A DNA stretch of 64,000 bases from Lachnospiraceae bacterium (GTDB taxonomy: Bacteria; Bacillota; Clostridia; Lachnospirales; Lachnospiraceae), in contig JAFZOW010000066.1 of the NCBI GenBank assembly GCA_017552715.1, forward strand, positions 48,585 to 112,584, in the 5' to 3' direction. Of the stretch, positions 25,759 to 32,086 are shown in pieces. The notes under the pieces are model-generated. The model did not search any database. It worked only from the letters and a program-made list of their open reading frames with translations, and was not told the origin of the DNA. How positions within the stretch are numbered: position 1 is the first letter of the stretch; the number at the start of each line of letters is the position of its first letter. Both the position numbers and the translations under genes were made by a program.

Positions 25759-26379
25759 TCAGTTTCCGGACAGGGCCACCACCAGCTTCACCCGGTCATG
25801 TATCCCTGTCTTATCGTAAATAGAAGAGATGTAATTCTTGACCGTCCCCTCGGAGATATAGAGTTTGTCGGCGATCTGCCGGTTTGTCAGGCCCTCGGTC
25901 AGAAGTGTTGCGATCTCACGTTCCCGCTCGGTCATTTCCTCGCAGAGGTCGGGGGTACTGTTTTTGTTCATCAGCGAGGTCAGGCGCATCATGACCTTGG
26001 GATCCAGCACGCTCACCCCGTGCATCAGCTGTCCCACAGCCCCCAGTATGGCATCCTTCCCGCTGTCCTTTAAGAGATAGCCGTCGGCGCCGTTACTGAT
26101 GGCATCCGTGATGTTCTTGTCGTCATAAAAGGTCGTGAGCACCAGGATCTTCACATCCGGGTACATGCGTTTCATATGACCGATCAGTTCGATCCCTCCC
26201 ATGCCCTTCATGTTCAGATCCACCAGGGCGATATCGCAGGCAGCCGAGCGCAGGATATCCAGCGCCTCATGCCCGTCATGGGCTTTGCCGATTATCTCAT
26301 AATCATTTACGGACAGGATGATCTCCAGACTGTCCAGAAGCATATTTTCATCATCCACCAGTAAAACCCTGTTCATCAT
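25759..26379 (-). CDS. NarL/LuxR-type response regulator
   Basis: A 206-residue response regulator. The receiver domain has VDDEN at 8-12, the phosphoacceptor Asp54 in ALVDLNM, T/F switch residues in LTTFYDD and Lys in LLKDSG. The C-terminal LuxR HTH reads TEREREIATLLTEGLTNRQIADKLYISEGTVKNYISSIYDKTG. It is third in the operon lipoprotein-kinase-regulator, 12 bases after the kinase gene. I infer that it binds the paired palindromes RTGACYGCRGTCAY found upstream of its own operon and of the neighbouring ABC operon. Confidence 0.93.
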   Translation of the reverse strand: MMNRVLLVDDENMLLDSLEIILSVNDYEIIGKAHDGHEALDILRSAACDIALVDLNMKGMGGIELIGHMKRMYPDVKILVLTTFYDDKNITDAISNGADGYLLKDSGKDAILGAVGQLMHGVSVLDPKVMMRLTSLMNKNSTPDLCEEMTEREREIATLLTEGLTNRQIADKLYISEGTVKNYISSIYDKTGIHDRVKLVVALSGN

Positions 26380-26391
26380 TCTCCTCTTTCA

Positions 26392-27570
26392 TCAGTTGGC
26401 GATAGGCAGCTCGATCACGCTGTGGAAGCCGTTGTCTTCATAAAAATCGGTGTGCCCGCCGCAGCGTTCCGCATAGGAAGCGAGTTTTTTCAGACCGAAG
26501 CCGTTTCGTATGCAGTCCTCCAGCTTCTCCTTATCATAATCATTTTTCCCGTTATCCGCAAGCTCCAGACGCACATGGGCACTGTCAGCGGAAAGCTTTA
26601 TGACAAAACGGCTCGCCCCGCCGTGCTTTACGCCATTGGTGAGCAGCTCGCTCAAAGCGCCCGTAAGGAACTCTGCATGTTCTCTGGGAAGCAGATATTC
26701 TTCCGAATAAACATCATAGAAACGATCGCAGCTGCGCTCCGTGTCCATCATGAACTCGTTCAGGATATTGTCGAAGTAGCAGAGCAGATCCTTGACACTC
26801 ACATCCTCCCCTTCCGCATCCAGGGCCCGCACGGCACTGCGTATGGATTCCAGGCTGCCCCGTATGCGTTCCGCCGCATCGTTCATCCTCTTATGGGCTT
26901 CTTCAGGCTTCTTCTCAAAGAGTACGTCCGCTGCATCCAGAGCCATTATGGCAGCTGTGATAGAATGGCCGACACTGTTATGAATGTTCCTGCTGATATT
27001 CTCCCGCTCGATGAGCCTTGCATTCTTATCCGCATAAAAGCTCTGTCTCCTCAGTTCCCGGTTCCTCCGCACCTCGTGCATCTCACTTAAGCCGTAGGAC
27101 AGGATCCTCCGTCTGTCCTCCTCCCTTTTCTGGCTGATCCGATACAGCAGCTTTCTGCACAGCACAACGAAAAGCATTATCATATCCAGCACAAAGAGAA
27201 GAACAAAAAGGAAGGCAATACGGTATCCGATACTCTGTCCCGAAGGCTCCGTATTACGGATAAGGGGGAGGAGAAAGTATTGTGCCGCCAATGCCACATC
27301 CGCCATAAGGAAGAGCTGCCACGCGCTTAAGGGCAGCAGGACAAAAACAATACAGCCCCAGAAGGAGCCGCTGCATATGGCAAAGAGAAAAGCAAAGGAA
27401 AGCTGCAGGAATTTAAGCAGCTTTCCCTCGTCCTCCTTTACGGCTCCCATGGTGATCAGGATCATCAGGCTGCCTCCCAGGGCCGGCATCAGATAACCGG
27501 AGCCGGAGAAAACAGCCGCAAGGATCGTCAGCAGGAGCAGCAGTATGTTTGACAGCATCACTTGGATCAT
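26392..27570 (-). CDS. Membrane sensor histidine kinase (HisKA_3/NarX-like)
   Basis: A 392-residue kinase. The first 145 residues hold four to five hydrophobic helices with little extracellular domain, pointing to sensing within the membrane or through a partner. A coiled-coil linker leads to the HisKA_3 region ERENISRNIHNSVGHSI with the phosphorylated His197, and the ATP-binding domain shows LTNGVKHG, DNGKN and GFGLKKL. It lies six bases after the lipoprotein gene and 12 bases before the response regulator gene. The kinase probably controls the adjacent FtsX-ABC-FtsX transporter, as in peptide-sensing modules of Firmicutes. Confidence 0.93.
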   Translation of the reverse strand: MIQVMLSNILLLLLTILAAVFSGSGYLMPALGGSLMILITMGAVKEDEGKLLKFLQLSFAFLFAICSGSFWGCIVFVLLPLSAWQLFLMADVALAAQYFLLPLIRNTEPSGQSIGYRIAFLFVLLFVLDMIMLFVVLCRKLLYRISQKREEDRRRILSYGLSEMHEVRRNRELRRQSFYADKNARLIERENISRNIHNSVGHSITAAIMALDAADVLFEKKPEEAHKRMNDAAERIRGSLESIRSAVRALDAEGEDVSVKDLLCYFDNILNEFMMDTERSCDRFYDVYSEEYLLPREHAEFLTGALSELLTNGVKHGGASRFVIKLSADSAHVRLELADNGKNDYDKEKLEDCIRNGFGLKKLASYAERCGGHTDFYEDNGFHSVIELPIAN

Positions 27571-27576
27571 AGGATC

Positions 27577-27981
27577 TTATTCCAGATTAAATTCGAATCT
27601 TCCGTCCTCACATTTGCCGTCTGTCTCAACAATGATGTAGATCTTCCCCTCATCGGAAAGGATCTGCGAAGCTTCCAGCTCATCGCCTTCCTCCACCTTG
27701 AACCACTCGGTCTTCGTCCCGTTCACATCATAGTATACGGTGGCGGAACCGCTTCCCAGTTTCGCATGATAACTCACTTCGCCCCTGGTCCCGTTCTTAT
27801 TCTTCAATGTAAAAACCTTTGTTCCTTCAAAGGAATCGAAGCTTACGCTTGCGGAATCCGAAAGGTTGTTTGAGATCATTATGGTTCCCACTCCGCTGGA
27901 AACATAAGAGCTGCAGCCTCCCAGACAGAATGCGGACAGCAGGGTGAACAGTACCAGTGTGCATGTGATCCTTCTTTTCAT
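27577..27981 (-). CDS. Small lipoprotein, first gene of two-component operon
   Basis: 134 residues from the ATG at 27981 with GGAGG 8 bases upstream. The lipobox CLGGC at residues 19-23 marks a lipidated Cys. The mature domain is beta-rich (MISNNLSDSASVSFDSFEGTKVFTL, VTYYD-like strands) and ends in FEFNLE. Being cotranscribed with the kinase it might act as an accessory sensor at the cell surface. No family recognised. Confidence 0.75.
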   Translation of the reverse strand: MKRRITCTLVLFTLLSAFCLGGCSSYVSSGVGTIMISNNLSDSASVSFDSFEGTKVFTLKNKNGTRGEVSYHAKLGSGSATVYYDVNGTKTEWFKVEEGDELEASQILSDEGKIYIIVETDGKCEDGRFEFNLE

Positions 27982-28049
27982 TGTTTTTTCCTCCTCTATG
28001 ATCATTGTTTTGTAAGATCCCTCTATCTTTTTCTCTTGTTCTGTATCTC

Positions 28050-28124
28050 ATTATACCCTGTCATCCATCCCCGGGGAAGTGACTGCGGTCACGATCTGCG
28101 CTCCGGAAACATGACCGCGGTCAT
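28050..28124 (-). promoter_or_regulatory. Activator-type promoter with two palindromes, two-component operon
   Basis: Two 14-base palindromes, GTGACTGCGGTCAC (28079-28092) and ATGACCGCGGTCAT (28111-28124), have centres 32 bases apart. TATAAT (28050-28055, minus strand) follows the nearer one after 23 bases. No TTGACA-like -35 is present. The nearer palindrome is centred about 42 bases upstream of the expected start point, the position used by NarL-type activators. The same layout occurs at 31086-31160. Confidence 0.85.
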
Positions 28125-28128
28125 ATCT

Positions 28129-29223
28129 TCAGAACCGGGTGACATCGCCCTTGCTCATGGCGTGCCCTTTTAAAAGGATAGTGGGCAGCACCACCAGGAT
28201 ATCCGACAGCAGGAAGCCGAAGAAGCCGGTATGAGTATAGTAAGGCAGATACTGTCCCGCCGGGATATATATCAGTTCGTTCATAAGGAAGCTGAATGTC
28301 AGTATCAGTATCCCCCCGCAGACTATGGCGATCAGGTCCATCATGAGGATCTCCGCCGCCACCTTACGAAAGATCCTTCCTCTCGACATACCGATGGCCC
28401 GGTATACCCCAAACTCGTAGGTCCTTGCGATGAACTGTCCCGTGATCACCGTATTCACGATCACCGAGATGATCAGCGCCAGCATCAGTGTGACTATCCC
28501 GAAGATCAGGTCAAAGGGAACAAATTGCTTATTGATCTCTTCCCGCATGGTGCTTCCGATGTCCGCTTTTCGCCCCGCCACCACAGAGGCGATATGCTCC
28601 CGCAGTTCATTTCCGGTCAGATCCCTGCCCAGGATGTTCAGCCGCAGCGGATCCCCCTCACTTTTGAGCACATAGTAGAGGATATAGCTGTCATCCTCGA
28701 TCAGTGCCGCCACCCGGTAGCTGCCGCTTATCCCCTCTGCCACCGTTGCATCCAGTATGTCCCCCTTCTTCAGTCCGTACTGTCGCGCCAGTGCCGTGGA
28801 AAGCACCACCGTTTGGTCTTTTACCTCGCTCATATCACATTGGATGCCGAAACGTTCAAAGGCTGTCTTCATATCCTCCGGCGTATCAAAGACCATGGAT
28901 ACGGCGCCCATCTCGAAGCCCATGGTGCAGGTCCATGACAATCCCCGGAGGCCCCAGGGAGATCTGGGCAGAACGATCAGCTCCTCATCGGCTTTCAGAT
29001 CTTCATAGATCTGCGCAAATTCCTTAAAATCCTCATCCGTGGACAGCGCGCTTACCACATACATCTTATCGAAGTACTCACAGCTCCGTTCCCAGTAATA
29101 ATAGGTACTGTCCACATAGTTCCCCGCAAGGAACATACAGGTCGTAAGGAACAGAAGAAAGATGATGATCAGCGCTCTCCCTTTATTCTCTTTTATATAA
29201 TACCATGCAGATAATGCTTTCAT
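28129..29223 (-). CDS. FtsX-like ABC transporter permease (second of pair)
   Basis: A 364-residue permease with one N-terminal transmembrane helix, an extracellular MacB-like domain (about 40-225) and three helices at the end, the standard single FtsX layout. The cytoplasmic coupling segment YEFGVYRAIGMSRGRIFRKVAAE is clear. Its ATG overlaps the ATPase stop by four bases (ATGA). With the ATPase and the other permease (29888-31042) it should form a heterodimeric MacB-like exporter. One of the regulatory palindromes of the next operon begins five bases after its stop. Confidence 0.9.
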   Translation of the reverse strand: MKALSAWYYIKENKGRALIIIFLLFLTTCMFLAGNYVDSTYYYWERSCEYFDKMYVVSALSTDEDFKEFAQIYEDLKADEELIVLPRSPWGLRGLSWTCTMGFEMGAVSMVFDTPEDMKTAFERFGIQCDMSEVKDQTVVLSTALARQYGLKKGDILDATVAEGISGSYRVAALIEDDSYILYYVLKSEGDPLRLNILGRDLTGNELREHIASVVAGRKADIGSTMREEINKQFVPFDLIFGIVTLMLALIISVIVNTVITGQFIARTYEFGVYRAIGMSRGRIFRKVAAEILMMDLIAIVCGGILILTFSFLMNELIYIPAGQYLPYYTHTGFFGFLLSDILVVLPTILLKGHAMSKGDVTRF

Positions 29224-29870
29224 CGGCTCAGCTCCCCGTCCCAGATCTCTATGATGCGTTCCGCGTCCTTTAAGATGCTCTTATCATGGGTGACCACCAG
29301 GACCAGTCTGTCATCGGAATACTCTTTCAGGATGCTCATTACATTGTAGGCGTTTTCATGATCCAGGGATGCCGTGGGCTCATCGGCAAAGATCACCTTC
29401 GGATCGTTGATCATGGCTCTTGCGATAGCCACCCTCTGGCACTGTCCGCCGGAAAGCTTAGCGGGCTTCTTACCGAATTCCTTTTCCGATAATCCCAGTT
29501 CCCGCAGGAAATCCGGCGCCTTCGCAGCTGCAGCTTTATCGACAGCTCCTACCTGCACATTATCGACAGCATTCATATAGGGTACCAGATAATGCTTCTG
29601 GAAGATAAACCCAAACTCCCTCCGGCGAAGCTGTTCCCTTTCCCGGTTTCCCACATGGGTAAGCTCCTTCCCGTTATAAAGTATGCTTCCCTCCGTGGGC
29701 TCCTTCAGCGTGGAAAGGCAGTACATCAGAGTGCTTTTTCCGCTGCCCGAAGGCCCGATGATCCCCACCAGTCCCCGGTCCGGGAGCTCCAGATCCACAC
29801 TTTTCAGTGCATAGGTCATGGCATCCGTATTCATGTCATAGATCATGGAAACATTTTTCATTTCAAACAT
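29220..29870 (-). CDS. ABC transporter ATP-binding protein (MacB/LolD type)
   Basis: A 216-residue ATPase. Walker A GPSGSGKST, Q-loop GFIFQKHYLV, signature LSGGQCQRVAIARAM, Walker B VIFADEPTASLD and VTHD are all intact. It lies between two FtsX-like permease genes: 17 bases after the first and overlapping the second by four. It powers the heterodimeric exporter and is controlled by the palindrome promoter at 31086-31160. Confidence 0.95.
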   Translation of the reverse strand: MFEMKNVSMIYDMNTDAMTYALKSVDLELPDRGLVGIIGPSGSGKSTLMYCLSTLKEPTEGSILYNGKELTHVGNREREQLRRREFGFIFQKHYLVPYMNAVDNVQVGAVDKAAAAKAPDFLRELGLSEKEFGKKPAKLSGGQCQRVAIARAMINDPKVIFADEPTASLDHENAYNVMSILKEYSDDRLVLVVTHDKSILKDAERIIEIWDGELSR

Positions 29871-29887
29871 CGTTCTTCCTCCCCCTT

Positions 29888-31042
29888 CTAATCCTCAATA
29901 TTATCAATGGTCTTTATCCGGCTTAAACATACCAGCGTCGGGATCTGCAGTATCCCCATGATGAACAGGTTCACGGACAGGATCTTTAAGATCTGATCCG
30001 TATAGAAGACCTTTCCCACCAGTCCCCGGGGCAGTATGACCAGTTCGTTGAGCAGGGCCGCCGAAAGAAGGGACAGGAGAAATCCGGTGCATGTGCCGAT
30101 CAGGAAAAGGATGAGCATCTCCTTAAGGATCATACAGTAGATCTCGTAGCGGCCGTAACCTATGGAAGAATATAGGTTATACTCATTCACCCGGTTCCTC
30201 ATAAAGGAGACATATGCCACCATCACCAGTATGCTCAGGAAGATCATGACCACCAAACAGATCCCCGTGATCACCATATCGATGGTGTCCTGAACATCCT
30301 TCTTATAGGCTTCCCGGTAGCTTGCCGCATCCCAGATCGTGTCCGCTTCCGTAAGCTCTATCCCCTGTTCCTTTAGCATACCCGTCAGATCCGTAGTATT
30401 CTCATCATTGCATACGACGATATAGAAGCCGCTGTTGGTATAACCCATGGGAGTCCCCATGCTGATCAGATACTCGGATCTTATCACACCCACGATGCGG
30501 AACACTTCCCCGTACCAGTCCGGCATAAACCAGCCTCCCAGTTCATAGCCGGAGTTTTTCATGATCGTGGCATCCACCAGCATCTCGCCGTCCCCTGCCG
30601 GCAGCCGTCCTTCAATGAGCTCCGCATCCATGTGCTTAAGGAAAGAAGGTATCCTTTCCGGCTCCATGAGGGGCACTTCGAAAGTGTACTGCCCCATCAC
30701 GGCCTGATACTTACTGTTCAGGATCTGGGTATAGAACGCATCCTCGATCCCGGGCTTCTGCTTCAGCGCATCCATGAGCTCCTGCTGTTTACTGTCATAT
30801 GCCGCCATATACTCTTCATCCGTTTCATAATCCTCTCCTTTAAGTCCGTAGGCTTTCCCGGAAAGATCGGCAAAGGATACGCGGGTGGGCATTTTCAGCA
30901 TGACGGGCTTGAAGCTCTCCGCTGAGGTCTGCATCAGCACAAAGATCACATACATGGCCACAAAGGCAAGGGCCAGAGCCAGGACCATGACCCCGGTGAC
31001 CCGCTTATTGTTTTTCACATATTTCCATGCCGACAGTTTCAT
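29888..31042 (-). CDS. FtsX-like ABC transporter permease (first of pair)
   Basis: A 384-residue permease, first gene of the three-gene ABC operon. An N-terminal transmembrane helix is followed by a large extracellular domain (about 40-255), then three helices with the coupling motif LYSSIGYGRYEIYCMILKE. It pairs with the permease at 28129-29223. The substrate is unknown; coupling to a membrane kinase without an obvious sensor domain suggests defence against, or export of, a peptide. The promoter lies 44 bases upstream of the ATG. Confidence 0.9.
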   Translation of the reverse strand: MKLSAWKYVKNNKRVTGVMVLALALAFVAMYVIFVLMQTSAESFKPVMLKMPTRVSFADLSGKAYGLKGEDYETDEEYMAAYDSKQQELMDALKQKPGIEDAFYTQILNSKYQAVMGQYTFEVPLMEPERIPSFLKHMDAELIEGRLPAGDGEMLVDATIMKNSGYELGGWFMPDWYGEVFRIVGVIRSEYLISMGTPMGYTNSGFYIVVCNDENTTDLTGMLKEQGIELTEADTIWDAASYREAYKKDVQDTIDMVITGICLVVMIFLSILVMVAYVSFMRNRVNEYNLYSSIGYGRYEIYCMILKEMLILFLIGTCTGFLLSLLSAALLNELVILPRGLVGKVFYTDQILKILSVNLFIMGILQIPTLVCLSRIKTIDNIED

Positions 31043-31085
31043 CTTTCACTCCTCCGCATTGGCATCGTTCTCATCTTATGGGCTT

Positions 31086-31160
31086 ATCATACTTTTTCCC
31101 GGAAAACAAAAAAAGTGACCGCAGTCATGAGTTTGTTTTTCTTCACATGACTGCAGTCAC
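31086..31160 (-). promoter_or_regulatory. Activator-type promoter with two palindromes, ABC operon
   Basis: Palindromes GTGACCGCAGTCAT (31115-31128) and ATGACTGCAGTCAC (31147-31160) have centres 32 bases apart, and TATGAT (31086-31091, minus strand) lies 23 bases past the nearer one. Spacing between sites and to the -10 box is identical to 28050-28124. The -35 position is TTTTTT, so an activator is needed. Confidence 0.85.
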
Positions 31161-31177
31161 AAGAATGCCGGGATCCT

Positions 31178-32086
31178 TCAATCCCTGTGATATACACTGT
31201 TCTCCTCATTATTCTTAAGAAGCCTGCGCATGGCGTAATAATGCTCATCTTCCCGCCAGCCCCCGGCAAGGGAATTGATCCCGGCGGTCACGATCTTCAC
31301 TCCGGGACGCTTTTTACGCAGGGCCGCTATGTCTTCCGTGGAGGCAGCGGTCTCCATGAAGGTCACACGCCGCAGCTTCGGAAGCTCCTCTATGGGCGAG
31401 ATATCCGCCACCGGATTGCGGCTGAAATTCAGGTCTTCCAGTTCTTCCAGGTACTTAAGCGCTTCCAGATCCGTGATGGAGTTTTTGAAGATCTCCAGAT
31501 AACGGAGCTGCGGGGCATACTTCAGCATGGAGATATCACAGAGTCCGGGATTGTCCACCATGATGAACACCTGAAGCTCATGCATGTACTGGAGAAAACT
31601 GAAGTCGTAGATGGCATTATGTCCCAGATCCAGGCCCACCATATCCCGGCAATATCGCAGATAATAGGCATCTTTTTCGGAGAGGGGCTGATCCAGGTCT
31701 CCGCCCCGGAAAGTAGAAAAGCCCACCGCATCGGTCCGCAGCTTTCTTCTGGAAAACTTTATCTCCCAGATGATGCGTACTCCGGGATGGGCATCCTGCA
31801 GGCGTGCATAACCTTCATTATCCAGCCCGCAGTCGATCATGACTATCTTTTCAAGCCGGTCCATAGCGGCAAAGAGCTTATCCATGTCACAGGCACTCAG
31901 ATCGATGCCCGACAGATCAAGGGATCTGGCATGAAGCGGGATCAGGCGTTCCCCGATCTTTAAAGTCCGGCCGGGACCTTCTTCCAGCACGGGAGCAGGC
32001 TCTTCCTGCCCGTCCTCGTCTCCGGCCCGGGCAGTAAGAGGCAGGGCAAAGAATATCAGCATCAGTACGAAGAGTATCCTTTTCAT
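31178..32086 (-). CDS. Secreted leucine-rich repeat protein
   Basis: A 302-residue protein with a signal peptide (hydrophobic core to ALPLTARAG). After an acidic linker there are irregular leucine-rich repeats from about residue 55, e.g. ARSLDLSGIDLSACDMDKL, GLDLGHNAIYDFSFLQYM, LEIFKNSITDLEALKYLEELEDLNFSRNPVADISPIEEL, the pattern of internalin-like or SDS22-type LRRs. The end, YYAMRRLLKNNEEN, is charged. It is probably exported or surface-located, and binds protein or glycan. It is the last gene behind C11 protease and MntP, 24 bases after the latter. Confidence 0.8.
   Translation of the reverse strand: MKRILFVLMLIFFALPLTARAGDEDGQEEPAPVLEEGPGRTLKIGERLIPLHARSLDLSGIDLSACDMDKLFAAMDRLEKIVMIDCGLDNEGYARLQDAHPGVRIIWEIKFSRRKLRTDAVGFSTFRGGDLDQPLSEKDAYYLRYCRDMVGLDLGHNAIYDFSFLQYMHELQVFIMVDNPGLCDISMLKYAPQLRYLEIFKNSITDLEALKYLEELEDLNFSRNPVADISPIEELPKLRRVTFMETAASTEDIAALRKKRPGVKIVTAGINSLAGGWREDEHYYAMRRLLKNNEENSVYHRD

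Follow-up and report, generated by a model that had tools for sequence, protein, structure and literature searches.

In a 64,000-nucleotide stretch of a Lachnospiraceae bacterium genome (assembly GCA_017552715.1, contig JAFZOW010000066.1, positions 48,585 to 112,584 of the forward strand; hereafter the window, with positions counted from its first letter), two neighboring operons are each preceded by a pair of 14-base palindromes. One promoter region, P2, lies ahead of the genes for two FtsX-domain permeases and an ATP-binding cassette (ABC) ATPase, and the other, P1, ahead of those for a small lipoprotein, a sensor histidine kinase and a NarL/LuxR-type response regulator; the six genes follow one another on the minus strand in the order FtsX1, ABC ATPase, FtsX2, lipoprotein, kinase, regulator (Table 1). 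The matched pairs of sites most likely allow a single sensor-controlled regulator to switch on the exporter and, here, its own genes. In the best explanation, which we consider very probable, each pair is a double operator from which transcription would be activated via the phosphorylated form of the regulator encoded at 25759-26379.

The palindrome RTGACYGCRGTCAY has four exact matches in the 3,431,658-base assembly (134 contigs), all of them inside the window; by a first-order Markov model of this stretch, 0.003 exact matches are expected in 64 kb and 0.14 in a genome. The two pairs have the same geometry: the centers of their sites are 32 bases apart, and the -10 hexamer, TATAAT in one case and TATGAT in the other, starts 23 bases past the proximal site. 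The 18-base spacers and the 23-base gaps are, by eye, unlike between P1 and P2. A consensus scan of the minus strand over 27900-31300 detected no sigma-70-like -35/-10 pair. An earlier, sequence-only reading of this DNA had described the four palindromes, their common distance to the -10 box and the missing -35 element, and these observations are confirmed with exact coordinates. GACYGCRGTC is present in all four sites, and a palindrome with a C(X)4G core next to the gene for a regulator with a GerE-type helix-turn-helix has the appearance of an operator of that class.

The arrangement recurs in related bacteria. Among 35 genomes of the genus, some of them incomplete, FtsX1 was found at E 1e-10 in 11, and a regulator orthologue at E 1e-45 in the same 11, with 75-84% identity in the ten that are not the window genome. 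All 11 module genomes have a palindrome pair upstream of the FtsX1 operon, spaced by 32 bases in the window genome (G000) and in G011, by 22 bases in eight genomes, and by 23 bases, with weaker sites, in G007. A scan for paired TGACYNNRGTCA with any gap of 0-30 bases matched 13 of the 35 genomes, namely ten of the 11 with the module, G007 being missed because its sites have mismatches, and three of the 24 others, all at a spacing of 13, which is a different arrangement. A wider pattern scan of genome contigs (TGACYGCRGTCA twice, gap 2-32) returned at least 117 stretches, of which 32 of those listed were grouped as Lachnospiraceae and other Bacillota, one Bacillus locus (L098, 38 bases) being counted apart. 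The 33 pairs in these 32 stretches were spaced by 21 (one pair), 22 (nine), 23 (one), 26 (one), 31 (one), 32 (eight), 33 (eight), 34 (two), 36 (one) and 40 bases (one); by eye, the pair at 26 bases belongs to a TetR-like locus, that at 36 is a hairpin past a gene end, and that at 40 a tandem repeat. With a relaxed pattern, 28 genomes, nearly all of them picked as carriers of the motif or module, yielded 35 pairs, 34 at 21-23 or 31-34 bases and one at 40 (a tandem repeat), and the reversed control pattern yielded none. Each of 27 of these genomes holds one to three pairs and G007 none, so that the regulon defined by the pairs is very small.

For a joint comparison, 23 pattern loci were combined with 18 from the window and from whole-genome loci into a set of 41 promoters, from which five that were more than 75% alike were removed to leave 36. 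Left out of the pattern loci were L104 (tandem repeat), L132 (TetR-like gene) and L142 (hairpin and T-run past a gene end), together with L054, L116, L117, L119, L122 and L128, which were loci already included. A -10-like hexamer, defined by A2, T6 and at least four of six matches, starts at exactly 23 bases in 37 of the 41 promoters (32 of the 36 non-redundant ones), other distances averaging about 0.9 of 36. The spacing between sites in the 36 promoters is only ever 21-23 or 31-34 bases. The sequence-only reading had proposed a search of related genomes for pairs 32 bases apart ahead of kinase/ABC operons; pairs do stand before homologous FtsX-ABC-FtsX and lipoprotein operons, but 32 bases is not the sole spacing, as 15 of the 36 belong to the shorter class. 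Directly past the proximal palindrome, 35 of 36 promoters have a T, and at least five of the eight bases just past that site are T in 33, against six in a mirror control (at least five A before the distal site). The 23 bases that separate the proximal site from the -10 correspond to 6 + 17, and the T-tract therefore occupies the place of a -35 hexamer; with its proximal site abutting the -35 position and a further site upstream, the layout is of the DosR type.

The pairs were also reached without the motif. With the regulator as sole query, 13 of 397 genomes of the family gave a match at E 1e-55 or better, and 11 of these regulator loci, taken as not covered before, were searched for pairs with three or fewer mismatches over a pair. 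Ten of them have a pair before FtsX1 or the lipoprotein gene, spaced by 22-24 or 32-34 bases and followed exactly 23 bases on by a -10-like hexamer, and in the eleventh (L223) the contig ends inside FtsX1, before the promoter. L228 is apparently the same record as L062, which leaves nine new loci. The same lenient scan gave three more pairs (12, 25 and 34 bases), none with a -10 at 23. Seven of the ten loci carry a single mismatch to TGACYNNRGTCA in one site of the pair. The two bases at the center differ among these relatives, which leaves TGACY NN RGTCA as the conserved core.

A mechanism consistent with this layout would have one regulator dimer on each palindrome, with TGACY as the half-site. 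The proximal dimer, centered near -42 right next to the -35 position, would make class II contact with RNA polymerase and replace the -35 element, the T-tract standing where that element would be in most relatives. The distal dimer, near -64 or -74, would lie on the same face of the DNA, two or three helical turns farther upstream, and might help by cooperative binding, by contact with the C-terminal domain of the alpha subunit, or both. These positions presume a transcription start about 7 bases past the -10, for P1 and P2 near 28043 and 31079 on the minus strand. Activation from P2 would turn on the FtsX-ABC-FtsX exporter, and activation from P1 the lipoprotein, kinase and regulator, which would amount to positive feedback.

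Such feedback is likely in the window genome, since P1 precedes the lipoprotein-kinase-regulator operon, and the self-amplifying module that the sequence-only reading had proposed fits the layout there (pair at 28079-28124). It does not hold for all relatives: at 13 of their loci (L018, L037, L062, L068, L126, L136, L224-L227, L229-L231) the pair stands downstream of the regulator gene, and feedback by way of the pair is therefore not general. The target that stays constant is the transporter operon, the lipoprotein or both. Homologues of the lipoprotein are found downstream of paired operators in six other distinct loci (L062, L066 = L134, L077, L107, L110 and L201), in three of which (L077, L110 and L201) the fetched stretch has no transporter of this kind. 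Other partner genes code for a CPBP/Rce1-like membrane protease (L022, L023) and an S41 peptidase (L022, L026), from which an envelope-stress or antimicrobial-peptide response is our guess. In genome G023, a CPBP/Rce1-like protease gene stands behind its own 22-base pair, with TATCAT at 23 bases (L202:4136-4171). A 21-base pair with TATCAT at 24 bases (L069:5213-5247) precedes a gene whose transglutaminase-like match stays below threshold (19.5 bits against a cut-off of 23) and which may be a further target.

The adjacent NarL-type regulator is, from sequence, the best candidate for the protein that binds the pairs. Its gene was found in all five genomes of one set and in 13 of the 16 genomes reached from 17 pattern loci, usually on the pair's contig; it is on another contig in G014, G016, G430, G438, G442 and G443, partly because contigs end. 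All 31 non-redundant regulators compared share the recognition helix SEGTVKNY(I/V)S; identity to the window regulator is 0.94 over the helix and 0.59 over the linker. Helices matching TVKNY or TVK[NT][YH][IVL]S are encoded by ten of the 117 stretches listed, all with SEGTVKNYIS, nine of them of Lachnospiraceae type and one from Bacillus. In this Bacillus locus (L098), found by the DNA pattern alone, the adjoining regulator is 35% identical and has the same recognition helix. By eye, two TGACTGCAGTCA sites stand there beside a NarL-type kinase/regulator (L098:4356-4407, Bacillus sp.), with GATAAT 23 bases off, before a serine-hydrolase-like gene. A regulator of the OmpR type, whose gene is ahead of the pair in L005 (G011), was considered as the binder and dropped because a NarL-type orthologue sits 4.7 kb downstream on the same contig.

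Several points weigh against this reading. The sites, their spacing, the -10 distance, the conservation and the co-occurrence are observed; binding, phosphorylation and activation, like the signal and the cargo, are what we infer. Most of the 41 promoters were gathered via the motif, so that their palindromes are conserved by construction, and it is gene context, spacing and -10 distance that are independent there. The -10 distance has its exceptions (no hexamer in L042, 22 bases in L077 and L136, 24 in L069), P1 itself has TTCCCCGG where the T-tract would be, and the 38-base spacing in Bacillus L098 puts its two sites out of phase. No regulator past E 1e-40 was found in three of the 16 pattern-positive genomes (G435, G441 and G431, the last with a tandem repeat as its pair). 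The whole DNA-binding domain (0.81) is no more conserved than the receiver (0.78), and only the recognition helix stands out. Finally, the window genome encodes a second NarL-type helix-turn-helix (L206), with an ISEGTVKNYIT helix, that could bind too.

Binding by another regulator, whether the L206 paralogue or a TetR-like protein, and possibly as a repressor, appears very unlikely. L206 has most of the same recognition helix, and by eye TetR-like genes lie beside TGACCGCGGTCA pairs with 22-base spacing in two Leisingera loci (L074, L102) and after a 26-base TGACYGCRGTCA pair in a Bacillota locus (L132); these loci perhaps reflect a different regulator using a look-alike site. What co-occurs with the pairs, however, is the adjacent regulator, and no TetR-like gene was recognized beside the kept pairs in open reading frame maps, although no family search was aimed at TetR. 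A site that abuts the position of a poor -35 is, moreover, activator-like. It is also very unlikely that the pairs are intrinsic terminators or attenuators, whose two palindromes would form one long RNA hairpin followed by T's and end the upstream transcript. P2 can be read in this way, as a 14-base inverted repeat with one G-T pair and then seven T, the T-richness past the proximal site is as widespread as described above, and pairing between distal and proximal sites is slightly better than in shuffled sequences (33 broken pairs against a mean of 37.6, with 0.006 of shuffles as low), on account of which the terminator is retained as a weak rival. Yet the full hairpin is found in only 14 of the 36 promoters, the three-turn class would give loops of 17-20 bases, P1 has no T-tract, and a terminator requires neither the exact -10 distance nor spacing by whole turns; in L077, furthermore, the upstream neighbor is divergent, so that its transcript would not enter the pair. 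Chance palindromes made notable by hindsight are rejected: the window has 27 matches at three or fewer mismatches, not clearly above a shuffle mean of 19.3 (7 of 100 shuffles as high), but its four exact sites far exceed expectation, and the idea is refuted because the sites are conserved, along with their spacing and -10 distance, among relatives, also at loci reached independently of the motif.

If the pairs are double operators for the adjacent regulator, as we prefer, the variation among relatives might follow a promoter grammar, a proposal that is tentative and on balance somewhat doubtful: the proximal dimer would be fixed to the base, 23 bases from the -10 with a T-tract for the -35, and further dimers would shift or be added by whole turns only. 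This rests on the two- and three-turn spacings, on a locus with three sites spaced by 33 and 32 bases (L130), and on an array ahead of FtsX1 of about five operators, degenerate in part, with spacings of 21, 21, 23 and 33 bases (L221:3354-3465). In Eubacterium sp. RGIG9269 (G433), a second paired promoter is followed by DNA that by eye resembles a fragment of FtsX2 and not an intact gene (L133:1337-1533). Were the grammar true, it would turn the module into a clean natural series on which the cooperation of tandem NarL-type activators could be tested, and the lipoprotein would be a co-regulated part of sensing. The 36 natural promoters vary spacing by whole turns with the -10 distance nearly fixed, which makes cooperative NarL-type activation directly testable. 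The analysis predicts operator, cognate regulator and regulon of a Lachnospiraceae two-component/exporter module, and leads to the signal come from genes within or next to the same units, namely those for the lipoprotein, the CPBP protease and the S41 peptidase.

The motif alone was rejected as a marker of the module. The other 85 listed stretches (84 non-Bacillota and Bacillus L098) hold 100 pairs, among the matches listed mainly at 22 (31 pairs) and 41-42 bases (36 pairs), and nine of these stretches were inspected by eye in addition to L098. In four Rhodobacteraceae loci (L044, L045, L060, L079), TTGACCGCGGTCAA palindromes 41 bases apart lie beside replication- and ParB-/partition-like genes, two more are the Leisingera loci beside TetR-like genes, and two Flavobacterium stretches and one from Quadrisphaera have no clear gene context. 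With the same palindrome in other contexts in Rhodobacteraceae and Leisingera, the motif by itself identifies nothing. At two or fewer mismatches, the whole assembly G000 has 152 motif matches, an excess over the 34 for the reversed pattern.

Table 1. Promoter elements and genes of the two operons in the window, in the direction of transcription.
Feature	Position	Strand	Remarks
P2 distal operator	31147-31160	minus	reads GTGACTGCAGTCAT; center about -74 if transcription starts 7 bases past the -10
P2 proximal operator	31115-31128	minus	reads ATGACTGCGGTCAC; center about -42
P2 T-tract	31108-31114	minus	seven T on the minus strand, at the place of the -35 hexamer
P2 -10 hexamer TATGAT	31086-31091	minus	starts 23 bases past the proximal operator
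FtsX1	29888-31042	minus	permease with an FtsX domain (PF02687); opens the transporter operon
ABC ATPase	29220-29870	minus	PF00005; top NCBIfam matches are LolD/MacB/DevA types, under cut-offs
FtsX2	28129-29223	minus	second FtsX-domain permease
P1 distal operator	28111-28124	minus	reads ATGACCGCGGTCAT; begins 4 bases past the FtsX2 stop codon
P1 proximal operator	28079-28092	minus	reads GTGACCGCAGTCAC
P1 -10 hexamer TATAAT	28050-28055	minus	starts 23 bases past the proximal operator
Small lipoprotein	27577-27981	minus	134 amino acids; lipobox-like LGGC by eye
Sensor histidine kinase	26392-27570	minus	HisKA_3
NarL/LuxR-type response regulator	25759-26379	minus	Response_reg and GerE (62.2 bits)

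The lipoprotein probably starts at 27981, as judged from its homologues, within a longer open reading frame that begins at 28005. It matched no Pfam or NCBIfam family, and a profile search against solved structures gave nothing usable, the top matches being named Cake and taken as designed proteins. The same kind of search with FtsX1 gave weak YbbP/MacB matches only (E 0.18 and 0.33). The best sequence matches of the regulator among solved structures are to VraR. A gene for a leucine-rich-repeat protein (31178-32086) ends 17 bases ahead of the P2 distal operator, and P2 may therefore also lie in the 3' end region of that gene.

The module shares features with several known systems and differs from each. 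Although both permeases have FtsX domains, the ATPase scores 186.6 bits for LolD (cut-off 307.75) and 176.1 for MacB (cut-off 966), short of an equivalog-level LolCDE/MacB-type assignment. A two-component system adjoining an FtsX-domain ABC transporter recalls the BceRS-BceAB-type modules. These have an OmpR-type regulator and one large permease, whereas here the regulator is of the NarL/GerE type and two permease genes encode one FtsX domain each. LiaR, CesR and VraR are likewise NarL-type regulators, with VraR the closest among solved structures, and their operators have a compatible core: the CesR box is TCAGHCTnnAGDCTGA, which accommodates GACTnnAGTC, and an A4 stretch flanks the repeat of the Streptococcus mutans LiaR boxes (PMC4447274). 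LiaR has primary and secondary sites, the latter requiring phosphorylation (PMC7191749). One strong and one weak site there contrast with two strong palindromes here, and the PliaI site at -76 to -52 with one that abuts the -35 position. In the window, the C(X)4G of the LiaR box T(X)4C(X)4G(X)4A is present, but the outer T and A are not found at the proximal sites; the kinase reaches 29.5 bits for Strep_LiaS (cut-off 450), and none of the nine proteins scanned matched a LiaF family, so that membership in LiaFSR/VraSR is not indicated.

A parallel in layout is DosR/DevR of Mycobacterium tuberculosis, also of the NarL subfamily, with TVKNY aligned in its recognition helix, a GACYNNRGTC core palindrome, and a proximal site at the -35 with further sites upstream. 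The DosR literature gives the consensus TTSGGGACTWWAGTCCCSAA with core GACTNNAGTC and a regulon of about 50 genes (PMC2275270), and one to several sites per promoter, the proximal one over the -35, with cooperative filling of the second (PMC3029386). The full DosR operator GGGACTWWAGTCCC is not found here, as the four window sites have the GAC-RGTC core but lack the GGG/CCC flanks; the outer bases are GGGAC/GTCCC in DosR and TGAC/GTCA in the present element. The sequence-only reading had not known the motif and module from the literature, and we found no description of either in the literature searched, most subscription journals lying outside its coverage; the available parts of PMC5855569, PMC11323011 and PMC4314665 contain no matching motif. 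The core, on the other hand, is that of the LiaR/CesR and DosR operators, and the earlier interpretation as a whole is partly supported. The DosR regulon is also far larger than the one to three paired promoters per genome seen here, where the -10 distance is nearly invariant, the sites are two or three turns apart and the target is an FtsX-type exporter. Judged from sequence, the element is thus best called a variant of known NarL-type control, with a core common to the LiaR/CesR and DosR operators and flanks that differ.

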